Shown: positions 3,329 to 39,530 of the stretch, piece after piece | Position numbering within the stretch: position 1 is the stretch's first letter | Layout: each line of letters opens with the position of its first letter | From: an uncultured Clostridia bacterium | GTDB lineage: Bacteria; Bacillota; Clostridia; Oscillospirales; Ruminococcaceae | DNA length: 39,557 nucleotides | Direction: 5' to 3' | NCBI GenBank assembly: GCA_947627205.1 | Contig: CANQVE010000019.1 | Location: 1-39,557 of the forward strand | Notes under the pieces: model-generated | The model's database searches: none | What the model was told of the DNA's origin: nothing | What the model saw: only the letters and a program-made list of their open reading frames with translations | Position numbers and translations under genes: made by a program

Positions 3329-5308
3329 TCAGCGTTTCTTTCTGGAAATAACAACTGCCGCGCCTGCAAGGGCAACAATGCCGAGCGTAAGCGAGATACC
3401 TGCAACGCCCGTGTCGGGAGAGGTTGCGCCGCTGCCTGAAGAATTGCTGTCGGTAGATGTTTCGCTGTCAGTGCTGTTGTCAAATGATGTTTCGCTATCC
3501 GTGCTTGTTTCAGTGTCGGAAGAAGTTTCACTATCTGAGCTTGCTTCGCTGTCCGAGCTTGTTTCGCTGTCTGAGCTGTCCTCAGGCTCTTTTTCTTCAT
3601 TCTGATAAGTTACGAAATAGGTCTTATCGCCGCTCTTTGCGAGGAAAAGATCCTCGTCGATCGCTATGACATCATCAGCCTCAATTTCTGTCGAAACGGT
3701 GTTCATATCCTTGTCAACAAGATAAGCCTTGCCGTTCTTTACAACGGGAGCGTAATCGCCTGCGAAATTATCCAAAGCGTCAAATTCGCCGAGGATCTTT
3801 TCGTTCTCGTCCATAAAGCCTGTTTTGCCGTCTTTGGTTGTGTACTTTAAGATAACACTATCTCCAACGAGATTAACGTCAATATCTTCATAGCACGTTT
3901 TGCTTTGCCAGTTTTTAAAATCATTGAAATTATCCAGAACAATATATCCGTCGGCAAGAACTACATCTTTATATGTTCCGTGACGGTCAAAAGGTTTTTT
4001 GGGATCATCGGGGTTGTTTTCATCGGGAACATATATGCTGGCAGTAACATCTATTGTCGCTATTGTGCATTTTTCGGAATAGTATTTTATATCAAATAAC
4101 CAAGACGGATAATCATCTTCTTCGCTGTAGAACCAACCGTCCGTTGAGCCTTGGCTATAATCAAATGTTTCACTGCCATAGCTTTCAACCTTACCTGTTT
4201 TTGCATTATAACCGTGTAATGTTGTCGAGCCTATTGCAGGAGGTGCGTCATCCCACCATACTATAGTGCCTTCATCGCCCCATAATATTCCGCCAAAATC
4301 TGCTCCGGTGCCAAATCCGTCTTCATGAACAGATGTTTCTGAATAAATTTTTTTGTAATTACCATCTTTATCTACTTGTCCAAGCTCATAACTCCAGCCG
4401 CCTGCCATATAAACCCAATTGCTACAAGGTGACTTTACGGAACATACATTTGCATATATATCTCCGCGGATAGGAACACTCCAAGAACGTCCATAACACT
4501 CAAATATTGTATCAAGAACATTATAATCATAAAAGCCTTGGCTCATATCTTCATCATAATAAACTACCGGTATTTCAATTTCATCGGGAATATTTTCTGC
4601 TTTTGCAATAACAACTTCATTTTTATTGCCGTCAGGTTGAGTTACAATCATTCTGAATTCAACGCCACAAGAAATATTGTCTGTTTCTTCACCGTCATCA
4701 TAGATATCTCCTGCGGATTTTTCTTTCAACAGAGTTATGTCTTTATTTAAGGTTTTAAACCCAATTGAAATTCCGTCTTCTCTTGAATAAGTCCAAGAAG
4801 TATCAAGGTCGCAGAGGTGTTTTATTTCGCCGTTTTCGATTTTATAAAGTCCTCTGTATATAACAACGTCCTCTTCTTCCTCGCTGTTCTCAACCTTTTG
4901 CTTTTCCATTTTAACAAGTTGAACATAGCCGTTCGCGCCGTTGAACATTCCCCACTTCAAGCCTGTTGTGTCGAAATCGGCTTTGAGTTTTTCTACTTTA
5001 AGCTCGCCTGTTTCTTTCCAGGCTTTAAGGCTCTCTTGGCTTATATAGCCGATATCGTCAAAGCTTACGTCAAGATTTGCGTCCTCATCAGCGCTTCCGT
5101 TTTCGCTTGAGGCAATACCCACGCCCGTGGTATCAACAACGCCTATTCCCTCTATAAAGACCAAATCGGACTTTATCTCGGTTTTAAGCTCAGAAGTCAC
5201 AAGCGCGATTTTTTCGCTTTTAACTTCTTCTGCAATTGAACTGTAAGCGACTGTTGAAAAAGCGACCGCCGCAGCCACTATTGACGCGGCAATTTTCTTT
5301 AGTTTCAT
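3329..5308 (-). CDS. Secreted, cell-wall-anchored surface protein of unknown function
   Basis: A 659-residue surface protein I cannot assign to a functional family. It has a Sec signal peptide (MKLKKIAASIVAAAVAFSTVA), then a roughly 540-residue extracellular region rich in Asp, Glu, Tyr and Trp. Near the C-terminal end of that region are segments resembling WG/beta-hairpin repeats (KTGFMDENEKILGEF, then NGKAYLVDKDMN). A Ser/Asp/Glu/Thr stalk of about 50 residues follows, then SPDTG, a hydrophobic helix and RKKR, i.e. a sortase-type anchor variant. No sortase gene is in the window. The start at 5308 has GGAGGAG upstream; an upstream in-frame ATG (5488) would place the leader RNA inside the gene and is rejected. 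Expression is probably controlled by the structured leader at 5372-5550. Confidence 0.82.
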   Translation of the reverse strand: MKLKKIAASIVAAAVAFSTVAYSSIAEEVKSEKIALVTSELKTEIKSDLVFIEGIGVVDTTGVGIASSENGSADEDANLDVSFDDIGYISQESLKAWKETGELKVEKLKADFDTTGLKWGMFNGANGYVQLVKMEKQKVENSEEEEDVVIYRGLYKIENGEIKHLCDLDTSWTYSREDGISIGFKTLNKDITLLKEKSAGDIYDDGEETDNISCGVEFRMIVTQPDGNKNEVVIAKAENIPDEIEIPVVYYDEDMSQGFYDYNVLDTIFECYGRSWSVPIRGDIYANVCSVKSPCSNWVYMAGGWSYELGQVDKDGNYKKIYSETSVHEDGFGTGADFGGILWGDEGTIVWWDDAPPAIGSTTLHGYNAKTGKVESYGSETFDYSQGSTDGWFYSEEDDYPSWLFDIKYYSEKCTIATIDVTASIYVPDENNPDDPKKPFDRHGTYKDVVLADGYIVLDNFNDFKNWQSKTCYEDIDVNLVGDSVILKYTTKDGKTGFMDENEKILGEFDALDNFAGDYAPVVKNGKAYLVDKDMNTVSTEIEADDVIAIDEDLFLAKSGDKTYFVTYQNEEKEPEDSSDSETSSDSEASSDSETSSDTETSTDSETSFDNSTDSETSTDSNSSGSGATSPDTGVAGISLTLGIVALAGAAVVISRKKR

Positions 5309-5371: not shown

Positions 5372-5550
5372 CAAAAAGTGCGCAGCGTTGAAGCCGCGCA
5401 CTGTAAAAATGCAAGCCTCAATCACTGCGACGTAAATTGTTTTCGAATTTGGAAGTATTATCCAGAAAGGATACACGAAAAACAGCATGCACTTTTACCG
5501 TAAAAGTGTATACTTCCAAATTAAAAACTATTCAATTTACGTCGCAAATA
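5372..5550 (-). promoter_or_regulatory. Candidate structured leader RNA (riboswitch-like) with intrinsic terminator, copy A
   Basis: The 5' untranslated region of the surface-protein gene. A 13-bp closing stem P1 (GCGACGTAAATTG, 5533-5545, with its exact complement at 5427-5439) starts just after the promoter. Inside is an 11-bp stem (TTTGGAAGTAT/ATACTTCCAAA) enclosing a short hairpin with arms CACTTTTA and TAAAAGTG, then a conserved GCTGTTTTTCGT tract. After P1 come GGCTTGCATTTTTACAG and a GC-rich terminator hairpin (5378-5401) with a T-run. About 70 bases separate the terminator from the start codon. A second copy with the same architecture and compensatory changes is at 37224-37395. The ligand is unknown and I do not match it to a known riboswitch class. 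Confidence 0.65.
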
Positions 5551-5551
5551 A

Positions 5552-5580
5552 ATTGTACCACAATATAAGAAAAATGTCAA
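5552..5580 (-). promoter_or_regulatory. Sigma-A promoter for leader RNA A
   Basis: -35 TTGACA (5575-5580), 17-base spacer, -10 TACAAT (5552-5557) on the minus strand. Predicted transcription starts right at stem P1 of the leader. The LRR gene promoter at 37195-37223 has the same hexamers and spacing. Confidence 0.85.
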
Positions 5581-37194: not shown

Positions 37195-37395
37195 TTGACA
37201 ATATTTTTAAATTATGGTACAATTTAATTGCGACATAATCTCATATTATTTCACATACAGCATACACTTTTACTGCGGTAAAAGTGTGGGCTCTGTTTTC
37301 GTATGCTGTTAGTGAATAAAGTATAACGAGATTGTGTCGCAGCAATCGGAGCTTGCGTTTTTACAGGTGCGCGGCTTCGGCTGCGCACTTTTTTA
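37195..37395 (+). promoter_or_regulatory. Promoter and candidate structured leader RNA with terminator, copy B
   Basis: Promoter -35 TTGACA (37195-37200), 17-base spacer, -10 TACAAT (37218-37223). The leader opens with P1 GCGACATAATCTC (37230-37242), pairing with GAGATTGTGTCGC (37328-37340) with one G-U. P2 is TTCAC/GTGAA plus CAGCATAC/GTATGCTG (37250-37265 with 37301-37316). P3 is ACTTTTAC, TGCG loop, GTAAAAGT (37266-37285), followed by GGCTCTGTTTTCGTAT. After P1 come GAGCTTGCGTTTTTACAG and a terminator GTGCGCGGC-TTCG-GCTGCGCAC (37367-37388) with a T-run. The same order and several identical tracts occur at 5372-5550, while the P1 and P2 sequences differ but stay paired. Confidence 0.68.
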
Positions 37396-37419: not shown

Positions 37420-38754
37420 ATGAAAAAAGCAAAATTATTATCGGCAATTTTAGCAACATCGCTTCTTCTGTCGGGGTGCGCGAACAGCACCGAAAATTCC
37501 TCGCAAAGCTCACAGCAGAATAGCGTTACAGACAATTCAAGCAGTTCTTCTCACAATAGTACATCTTCTTCAAGCTCAACTGAAAGTAGCTCGTCTGAAA
37601 GCAGTTCTTCCGAAATAACCGAAAGTTCTTCAAGTTCCGTTGTCAGCAGTTCCGAGGAAAGCAGTTCGGCTGAAACTTCTTCAAGCGCAGAGGCTTCAAG
37701 TTCTAAGCCTGCAAGTTCTTCAAGCAAGCTCGCTTCAAGTTCAAAATCTTCAAGTACATCAAGCTCGTCAAACAAATCTGCTTCAAGCTCCAAACCTGCA
37801 AGTTCTTCAAGCAAGTCTGTTTCAAGTTCTAAGTCAGCAAGTTCTTCAACGCCTGCAACTCCTCCTGCAAGCGGTACGGTGACAATTTTCGGGAAAGAAT
37901 ATGATATAGCAACTACAACAGGGTTTTATTGCTATTCCGTAGATGTTAACCGCGTTACATTTGATGATGCAGTAAAAATCGGCAAACTTGTAAATTTGAC
38001 AACTATATATATTAGTGGTGTAGAAATTACAGATATAAGTCCATTTTCAAATCTTACCAAGCTGGAAGAATTGTATTTGAGCAGTAGTCAAATAAGCAAT
38101 ATAAGTTCGCTTGCAAATCTTACTAATCTTACCACTTTGAGTTTGGATTATAATCAAATTAGCGATATAAGCCCTCTTGCAAATCTTACTAATCTGACAT
38201 ATTTGCATTTGAGCTATAATCAGATCAGAGATATAACTCCGCTTTCAAATCTTACTAAGTTGGATAATTTGATGTTGAATTATAATCAAATCAGTGATAT
38301 AAGTCCGATTTCTAATCTTACTAAACTGAAATATTTGAATTTGAGCGATAATCAAATAAGCAATATAATTGCACTTGAAAATCTTGCCAATTTGGCGTGG
38401 TTAGGCTTGGGCAACAATCAAATCAGCAATATAAGTGCGCTTGCAGAGCTTACTAATCTGACGGAATATTTGGGATTGTATACTAATAAAATCAGCGATA
38501 TAAGTGCGCTTAAAAATCTTACTAATCTGACAGATTTGAATTTGTCGAATAATCAAATCAGCGATATAAAGCCGATTTCAAATCTTACTAAGCTGACAAG
38601 TTTGGTTTTGAGCAATAATCAAATCGGCGATATAAGTCCTCTTGTAAATCTTACTGAACTGAAATATTTGAATTTAAGCGATAATCAAATAAGCAAAGAA
38701 GATATATATCAACTTAAAACTCATCTTCCGAATTGTTCTATAAGTTTTATATAA
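37420..38754 (+). CDS. Leucine-rich-repeat lipoprotein with serine-rich linker (internalin-like)
   Basis: A 444-residue secreted lipoprotein. The lipobox is LLSG-Cys20 after MKKAKLLSAILATSL. About 125 residues of low-complexity Ser/Ala/Lys/Thr-rich linker follow. Next is a short cap (GTVTIFGKEYDIATTTGFYC), then roughly 11 LRRs of 22 residues with the internalin/SDS22 pattern (LTNLTTLSLDYNQISDISPL). One repeat (near LTEYLGLYTNKIS) carries an extra residue. It is probably surface-exposed and binds a protein or glycan ligand. AAGGAGG lies seven bases before the ATG. Expression is likely gated by the leader RNA and terminator just upstream. The repeats are AT-rich compared with the surroundings. 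Confidence 0.9.
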   Translation: MKKAKLLSAILATSLLLSGCANSTENSSQSSQQNSVTDNSSSSSHNSTSSSSSTESSSSESSSSEITESSSSSVVSSSEESSSAETSSSAEASSSKPASSSSKLASSSKSSSTSSSSNKSASSSKPASSSSKSVSSSKSASSSTPATPPASGTVTIFGKEYDIATTTGFYCYSVDVNRVTFDDAVKIGKLVNLTTIYISGVEITDISPFSNLTKLEELYLSSSQISNISSLANLTNLTTLSLDYNQISDISPLANLTNLTYLHLSYNQIRDITPLSNLTKLDNLMLNYNQISDISPISNLTKLKYLNLSDNQISNIIALENLANLAWLGLGNNQISNISALAELTNLTEYLGLYTNKISDISALKNLTNLTDLNLSNNQISDIKPISNLTKLTSLVLSNNQIGDISPLVNLTELKYLNLSDNQISKEDIYQLKTHLPNCSISFI

Positions 38755-39009: not shown

Positions 39010-39085
39010 TGGCACGGGCAGAAGGACTTGAACCCTCGACATACGGTTTTGGAGACCGTCGTTCTACCAACTGAACTATACCCGT
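39010..39085 (-). tRNA. trnW: tRNA-Trp (CCA)
   Basis: 76 bases including encoded CCA; acceptor stem ACGGGTA/TGCCCGT; anticodon loop CTCCAAA gives anticodon CCA; T-loop GTTCAAG. Last tRNA of the cluster downstream of the 5S gene. Confidence 0.96.
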
Positions 39086-39118
39086 ATATAAAATTTCGCT
39101 GAACACGAGGTTCAGCGA

Positions 39119-39195
39119 TGGTGCGCCAACAGGGACTCGAACCCCGGACCGACCGGTTATGAGCCGGTTGCTCTAACCAACTGAGCTATTGGCGC
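39119..39195 (-). tRNA. trnM: tRNA-Met (CAT)
   Basis: 77 bases with encoded CCA; acceptor stem GCGCCAA/TTGGCGC; anticodon CAT in the stem-loop CCGG-CTCATAA-CCGG. It looks like an elongator Met tRNA; a tRNA-Ile with lysidine-modified CAT cannot be excluded by eye. Confidence 0.93.
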
Positions 39196-39218
39196 AAATA
39201 GGGAAAACTCCCGTATAA

Positions 39219-39293
39219 TGGTGACCCGTACCGGAATCGAACCGATGTTAACGGCGTGAGAGGCCGCTGTCTTAACCGCTTGACCAACGGGCC
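39219..39293 (-). tRNA. trnE: tRNA-Glu (CTC)
   Basis: 75 bases with encoded CCA; begins GGCCCGTTGGTCAAGCGG, typical of Glu tRNAs; anticodon loop CTCTCAC gives CTC, reading GAG. Confidence 0.95.
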
Positions 39294-39332
39294 ATATAAA
39301 GGTAAGGAATAGGAGATCCTATTCCTTACTTA

Positions 39333-39408
39333 TGGTACAGCTTCAGGGACTCGAACCCTGGACCCACTGATTAAGAGTCAGTTGCTCTACCAACTGAGCT
39401 AAAGCTGC
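39333..39408 (-). tRNA. trnK: tRNA-Lys (CTT)
   Basis: 76 bases with encoded CCA; acceptor GCAGCTT; anticodon stem-loop CTGA-CTCTTAA-TCAG gives CTT, reading AAG. First tRNA after the 5S gene. Confidence 0.95.
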
Positions 39409-39412
39409 ATAG

Positions 39413-39530
<118 letters not shown>

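Follow-up and report, generated by a model that had tools for sequence, protein, structure and literature searches.

Do the two terminator-ending leaders in a 39,557-nucleotide stretch of DNA from an uncultured Clostridia bacterium (contig CANQVE010000019.1 of assembly GCA_947627205.1; the whole stretch is hereafter the window) belong to a class of regulatory RNA, and if so, how might such an RNA govern the gene behind it? An initial annotation had placed the leaders at 5372–5550 (minus strand) and 37224–37395 (plus strand); both are present there, spanning 5547–5373 (leader A, minus) and 37228–37394 (leader B, plus). With a probability of roughly 0.77, judged from sequence and computed folds, we read each unit as a cis-acting three-way transcription attenuator, a promoter-plus-leader cassette in which one short RNA stretch with two possible partners probably decides whether the next gene is read. 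Computed support covers the anatomy, the covariation of P1, P2, P3 and the terminator, the preference of both alternative helices for their own partners, and the overlap of these helices on the linker bases.

The element has a promoter, then a rod (P1, an AUA junction and P2) and a P3 hairpin whose 3′ bulge is conserved; a linker, likewise conserved, leads to an intrinsic terminator. The promoters, read from the sequence, occupy 5552–5580 for leader A (minus; TTGACA at 5580–5575, TACAAT at 5557–5552, 17-nt spacer) and 37195–37223 for leader B (plus; TTGACA at 37195–37200, TACAAT at 37218–37223), which bears out the claim of a common promoter type, TTGACA-17 nt-TACAAT in each. The 13-bp closing stem starting GCGAC and the inner stem were likewise found in both. 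P1, assigned by sequence, fold and family alignment, joins GCGACGTAAATTG (5533–5545, minus) to CAATTTACGTCGC (5427–5439, minus) in leader A and GCGACATAATCTC (37230–37242, plus) to GAGATTGTGTCGC (37328–37340, plus) in leader B. The P3 hairpin lies at 5490–5508 (minus; CACTTTTAC/GTAAAAGTG; sequence, fold and family alignment) and at 37265–37286 (plus; sequence and fold). Both leaders contain the TTTTAC/GTAAAA hairpin described in the annotation; what it called a conserved loop tract corresponds to the 3′ bulge tract, GGGCTCTGTTTTCGTAT in leader B and CATGCTGTTTTTCGTGT in leader A, and the predicted GCTTGC(A/G)TTTTTACAG linker and GC-rich terminator with a U run follow in each. Within P2 of leader A, at 5459–5473, there is an extra small hairpin (TATCC TTTCT GGATA), by eye absent from the nine other folds of the same genome.

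Three regions matter for the proposed switch. Region 1, the P3 3′ strand together with the bulge, is complementary to the linker (GTAAAAGTGCATGCTGT at 5482–5498 in leader A, minus, duplex energy −17.8 kcal/mol, and family tests; GTAAAAGTGTGGGCTCT at 37278–37294 in leader B, plus, −21.1 kcal/mol). Region 2 is the linker segment common to both alternative helices (GAGGCTTGCATTTTTAC at 5403–5419, minus, the whole linker being 5426–5401; GGAGCTTGCGTTTTTAC at 37348–37364, plus, the whole linker being 37341–37366). Region 3 is the terminator 5′ strand, with which, by duplex energies, the linker can pair as an antiterminator (GTGCGCGGCTTC at 5390–5401, minus; 37367–37378, plus). The intrinsic terminators with their U runs, located by sequence, fold and energy, extend over 5373–5401 (minus) and 37367–37394 (plus). 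The antiterminator hairpin is computed at −13.4 vs −17.6 kcal/mol for the terminator in leader A, and at −14.6 and −17.0 kcal/mol, respectively, in leader B; by these energies the competing helices are of similar strength in both. Downstream lie, after leader A, the gene of a 659-aa protein with a signal-peptide-like N-terminus and no Pfam match (3329–5308, minus) and, after leader B, that of a 444-aa lipoprotein with leucine-rich repeats (37420–38754, plus; LRR_4, E 7.9e-51).

Is this anatomy under selection as RNA structure? Leaders A and B have fold z-scores of −7.5 and −7.6, and 0/200 dinucleotide shuffles fold as well. The compensatory differences in P1 and P2 noticed between the two leaders proved real: across 102 distinct relatives P1 is 98.7% paired and 9/11 of its pairs have changed on both sides. 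Over the whole structure in these relatives, 94.8% of cells are paired vs 84.4% when shuffled and 38–48% with the partner slid, counts that lean to P1, inner P2 and P3 because the alignment was fitted to those parts; double-sided changes number 365 cells vs 101 in shuffles. The bulge:linker helix GCUCU/GGAGC lies outside the search model, yet it is 89.1% paired, with both-side changes in 3/5 pairs. Covariation, on which the original proposal leaned, was assessed against a phylogeny-aware null of our own, modelled on R-scape and built on a FastTree tree and Fitch reconstruction, with substitutions re-dealt along the branches. Ten column pairs are significant at E<0.05 (99 sequences; 3/102 dropped), nine of them in the named helices: three in P1, two in P2, one in P3 and three in the terminator, whose columns lean to pairing because they were cut by folding; the tenth, internal to the linker, is read as an alignment-register artefact. 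With 252 sequences and fewer columns, 8 pairs pass: the linker-internal pair again, a single P1 pair and six terminator pairs.

With what, then, does the linker pair? As drawn from the alignment, the linker (GGAGC-U-AUGCRUUUUU) is complementary to the P3 3′ strand and bulge (AAAAAYGCAU-GCUC), a relation overlooked in the initial annotation. Five anchored positions are 97.4% paired, in the best of seven registers tried, vs 91.6% (sd 0.5, 300 permutations) with linkers dealt among 100 sequences, and the same anchored test gives 93.8% vs 86.9% for 252 sequences. Duplex energies were computed for 247 of the 290 alignment rows; those dropped were 25 duplicates, 7 overlapping hits on opposite strands, 9 rows in which no terminator was recognised and 2 lacking a T run. 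Region 1 binds its own linker at −15.4 kcal/mol, the linkers of others at −12.1 and those of the ten most similar elements at −14.0, and the own value was reached in 0/2000 permutations and 0/500 neighbour draws. A nonsense control, reversed region 1 against the linker, gives −5.55 (own), −5.32 (others') and −5.24 kcal/mol (ten most similar), with counts of 5/2000 and 0/500 (1/2000 in a separate run); since this control still scores low counts, permutation counts alone overstate significance, being inflated by composition and relatedness, and it is the effect size that matters, 3.3–3.4 kcal/mol for region 1:linker vs 0.2–0.5 for the reversed control. The own preference also holds within single genomes, at 1/5000 in the window's genome (G000) and 0/5000 in each of two others (G659 and G693), which argues for pairing in cis; ranked among all linkers of the genome, the own one comes first for only 2/10, 6/20 and 9/21 copies, respectively. 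Judged one at a time against the phylogeny-aware null, column pairs between region 1 and linker do not reach significance for the alignment as a whole, at E 0.59 and 5.9 with 99 sequences and E 0.18 and 0.58 among 2016 pairs with 252, and are significant only as pre-specified pairs (p about 9e-5 and 3e-4).

The same linker is also complementary to the terminator 5′ strand, again overlooked at the outset. Over the 247 elements this helix is computed at −10.7 kcal/mol for own partners, −9.4 for others' and −9.7 for the ten most similar (0/2000 and 0/500). When the linker was extended with the P1 end, the terminator 3′ strand reached −9.7, nearly equal to the −10.5 of the 5′ strand, because the P1 end had been included; the linker alone was then tested as a control against the terminator 3′ strand and shows no preference (−6.15 own, −6.11 others', −6.23 ten most similar; 568/2000 and 427/500). 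Own preference of the antiterminator recurs within G659 (0/2000) and G693 (1/2000) and is not seen in the window's genome with its 10 copies (451/2000), and a fixed-column test falls short of significance (z 1.6), possibly owing to register shifts that come with varying terminator length. These two results apart, an antiterminator that would compete with the terminator is conserved by covariation. The two alternative helices have at least 5 linker bases in common in 243/247 elements, with a mean overlap of 8.3 common bases of the 9.6 used in the antiterminator, so that the linker segment can be paired with one or the other, not with both.

These observations suggest a sequence of events that might run as follows. 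Transcription would start at P1, and P3, then P2, then P1 would form a rod of ~30 bp (medians, P1 12 bp and P2 18 bp) in which the conserved AUA lies between P1 and P2; the linker, emerging co-transcriptionally after the rod, would face two mutually exclusive partners. In the putative OFF state, the linker pairs with region 1 and displaces the P3 5′ strand, leaving the terminator 5′ strand free for the terminator to form. In the putative ON state, the linker pairs instead with the terminator 5′ strand, no terminator forms, and RNA polymerase would read into the gene just downstream. That docking on the bulge corresponds to OFF, rather than the reverse, is the direction we infer, and some signal presumably biases the docking.

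How could the linker reach its first partner at all? Region 1 sits at the far end of the ~30-bp rod, and ~7 nt separate P1 from the first region 1-pairing linker base. At about 2.8 Å per base pair and 6 Å per nucleotide, such a spacer cannot span the rod, which would thus have to bend back at the AUA junction; the conserved junction offers a natural candidate hinge for the fold-back. A match of P1 length to P2 length, as a hinge might suggest, found no support (correlation −0.77, which in part reflects the script's division of a single rod into two stems). Alternatively to bending, the pairing might occur between two RNA molecules. The preference for own partners within genomes argues against pairing of different copies, but not against pairing of two molecules of the same copy.

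The genomic surroundings of the family fit the layout of the two leaders. A promoter at fixed distance precedes 203/212 distinct elements vs 98/212 with shuffled upstreams, its −10 box beginning exactly 10 nt before the element in 181/212, and an intrinsic terminator follows 211/219 distinct elements, lying between promoter and start codon. A script found a confident gene 15–260 nt downstream in 196/238 hits (median 49 nt after the linker, 5th–95th percentile 43–156), and none within 260 nt for the other 42/238. That both leaders control secreted surface proteins, as was first proposed, stands as a strong tendency across the family and fails as a rule. By a crude script, the N-terminus is hydrophobic or carries a lipobox in 124/196 downstream proteins, vs 118/431 background ORFs. 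Among 148 downstream proteins, own genome excluded, Pfam matches include 37 LRR_5, 23 LRR_8 and 7 LRR_4 (overlapping families), 6 AMP-binding, 6 zinc ribbon and 3 DUF6809. Of the ten downstream proteins in the window's genome, 8 have leucine-rich repeats, while the protein after leader A and one other have no Pfam match. By position, several LRR loci of that genome have no leader, so that the leader marks a subset. Inspection by eye covered 41 elements of G659 and G693, which belong to the same genus: many stand before secreted proteins, a good part of these with LRR-like repeats, and some before no clear gene. In PHROGs, the most frequent downstream matches (36/148 and 35/148) are families of unknown function, and a link to anti-phage defence was rejected, with five such families, one protein each, among the 148. 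Two side observations concern individual downstream proteins. A small AbrB-like protein with a zinc-finger-like tail (by eye) follows the leader repeatedly in one genus (L296, L308, L318, L326 and L327) and may be a regulator inside the regulon, and proteins with a shared N-terminus, TG[YF]PSIDKPW[LS]KYY, follow it in several genomes (L052, L085, L100, L226 and L245).

How widely is the element distributed? Homologues in related genomes, whose absence would have counted against a functional RNA, were sought with covariance models, and many were found. By blastn, eight further copies lie outside the window, which together with leaders A and B makes ten in its genome; model R1, built from these ten, refinds them and adds no full-strength copy there. 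R1 is positive in 29/61 genomes and 9/25 genera (E<=0.01) and, across the order, in 115/394 genomes and 63/168 genera (E<=0.001); model R2, built from 103 hits, is positive across the class in 93/391 genomes and 55/223 genera (E<=1e-4), the own genome being counted each time. In a phylum sample, which also included some same-order and same-class genomes without a match, R2 is positive in 1/299, namely the own genome. The order, class and phylum counts are lower bounds, since only 8–11 candidates per genome were scored; eight genomes at that ceiling, scored deeply, hold 9, 24, 26, 20, 13, 9, 9 and 13 copies. An exact 19-base piece of the element is present in at least 117 named stretches; among the matches listed are metagenome-assembled genomes and genomes of uncultured bacteria, under names such as Oscillospiraceae, Ruminococcus, Ruminiclostridium, Monoglobus and Clostridia; the named sources are mostly animal rumen, colon, caecum, rectum and faeces. 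The family is large and occurs in many Clostridia, largely of gut and rumen. Elements also stand in tandem (L128 401–935, L129 401–857, L319 2001–2334, L321 101–474, L322 101–441, L331 101–451 and L332 101–444). Each of eight tandem gaps read contains a terminator and, by eye, a new promoter for the second unit, so that each unit may be an independent promoter-switch cassette. A divergent, shorter sub-type with the linker GATCAAGCTGCGTTTTTATTATT was seen at L319 2001–2118, L312 2001–2117 and L322 319–441, two of the three within tandems.

What, then, might set the switch? We tentatively picture a riboswitch-like class, a picture that we hold at somewhat less than even odds, in which the rod bends at the AUA hinge, the linker reaches the bulge and displaces the P3 strand, and hinge or bulge responds to a signal from inside the cell, through which Clostridia of gut and rumen would control whole sets of LRR surface proteins. 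In its strict form, a small molecule or ion would bind the bulge or junction and bias the switch, which comes close to an even bet. The highly conserved unpaired tracts (AUA junction 96–98%, bulge CTC 87–97%, linker AGCAA 87–95%), an expression platform of alternative helices, and up to 26 dispersed copies per genome besides tandem copies all speak for a strict riboswitch, dispersed and tandem copies being typical of signalling riboswitches as well; however, the heterogeneity of the downstream genes, in which even LRR_5, AMP-binding and zinc ribbon proteins are only a part of the 148, suggests no ligand. Cyclic di-GMP in particular is unlikely as a general ligand, since a GGDEF match (E<=1e-5) is absent from 3/12 element-bearing genomes searched, G384, G693 and G673, with 9, 24 and 13 element copies and completeness of 100, 94 and 96%; all five same-genus genomes without a detected element do have GGDEF matches. 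Rather less likely, in our estimate, an antiterminator or other RNA-binding protein recognizes the bulge or P3 and sets the switch. The long rod with its conserved bulge would make a plausible protein site, and attenuators set by proteins are known from LicT/RAT and ANTAR targets, but since the elements span many families of the class such a protein would need to be widespread. As for a leader-peptide mechanism, no conserved ATG with a Shine–Dalgarno sequence was seen by eye.

Other readings dispense with the linker as the decisive element. The P1 3′ strand might itself be the antiterminator, pairing with the terminator 3′ strand once P1 opens, as in the classical riboswitch arrangement, with linker:terminator pairing secondary. 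This we consider improbable: the P1 3′ end prefers its own terminator 3′ strand over those of others (−12.1 vs −11.0 kcal/mol, 0/2000), and by eye P1 and terminator have changed together in copy C7 (18 kb), but the preference vanishes against the ten most similar elements (−12.05, 213/500), an 11–13-bp P1 under an 18-bp P2 would have to open, and the double complementarity of the linker would be left unexplained. The complementarity of the P1 3′ end to the terminator 3′ strand nevertheless exists and may provide a second switch path. Very unlikely, too, is a trans-acting small RNA merely positioned upstream of genes. The element has its own promoter and terminator, the terminated form thus being an RNA of ~175 nt, and so does the second unit in the eight tandem gaps (promoter by eye), but a start codon follows closely in most hits, partners prefer their own inside single genomes, and linker:terminator complementarity would be superfluous for a small RNA. 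That the copies are a REP- or MITE-like mobile or repeat DNA element without regulatory role is scarcely credible, for, despite many similar copies per genome and two matches in unannotated faecal records labelled bacteriophage, the copies differ by compensatory changes, have a promoter at their start and in most cases a gene behind their end, and a phage or plasmid origin was rejected, the exact 19-mer being absent from viral contigs and leader B having no blastn match in plasmids. An element-like match (79% identity over 82% of the query) lies in MT835845.1 (L333 2106–2234), an unannotated, unverified “Bacteriophage sp.” faecal contig, and could be bacterial DNA.

The cis-acting attenuator thus remains our preferred reading, and it raises the matter of novelty. 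None of the 4227 families of Rfam 15 matches either leader at gathering score, where a match would have removed the novelty originally claimed; the only matches of that score in the window are one 5S rRNA and four tRNAs, which the scan places at the window end, 39013–39529. At E<=5 there are nine Rfam hits to the two leaders, all below 40% of the gathering score and mostly miRNAs, the others including rli42 and the OppA thermometer. Given the lack of an Rfam match, the many homologues and the significant covariation, the proposal of a candidate new regulatory RNA class holds in the sense of a class of regulatory RNA that Rfam 15 lacks; single genomes carry up to 26 copies, and the element extends over many families of Clostridia. 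From the switch one would learn how bacteria that are for the most part uncultured regulate the surface proteins through which they probably make contact with host, food particles and neighbours, and the covariance model together with a clear switch provides the means to look for its signal. No such RNA is described in the literature searched, including the covered portions of PMC8040213, PMC11109978 and PMC8632094; it could be one of the 3161 candidates of PMC8040213 without having been given a name there. With neither an Rfam match nor a description in the literature searched, we call it a new class within the known cis-acting attenuators and riboswitch-like leaders.

Among these relatives, the c-di-GMP-I and -II riboswitches resemble the element in standing upstream of secreted or surface proteins, as does the c-di-GMP riboswitch upstream of cbpA in B. 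thuringiensis (PMC7423583), whereas the element is without an Rfam match and occurs in genomes without a GGDEF match. With the T-box and with protein-dependent attenuators it has in common a leader with competing antiterminator and terminator, although Rfam scans give no T-box match. The proposed mechanism also resembles that of the preQ1, ZTP and fluoride riboswitches, terminator-type riboswitches with pseudoknotted aptamers, in which, as here, a 3′ segment engaged in a pseudoknot also serves the competing choice between terminator and antiterminator; unlike them, the present element, which none of the Rfam families matches at gathering score, has a ~30-bp rod with an AUA junction and a linker that can displace the whole P3 strand.
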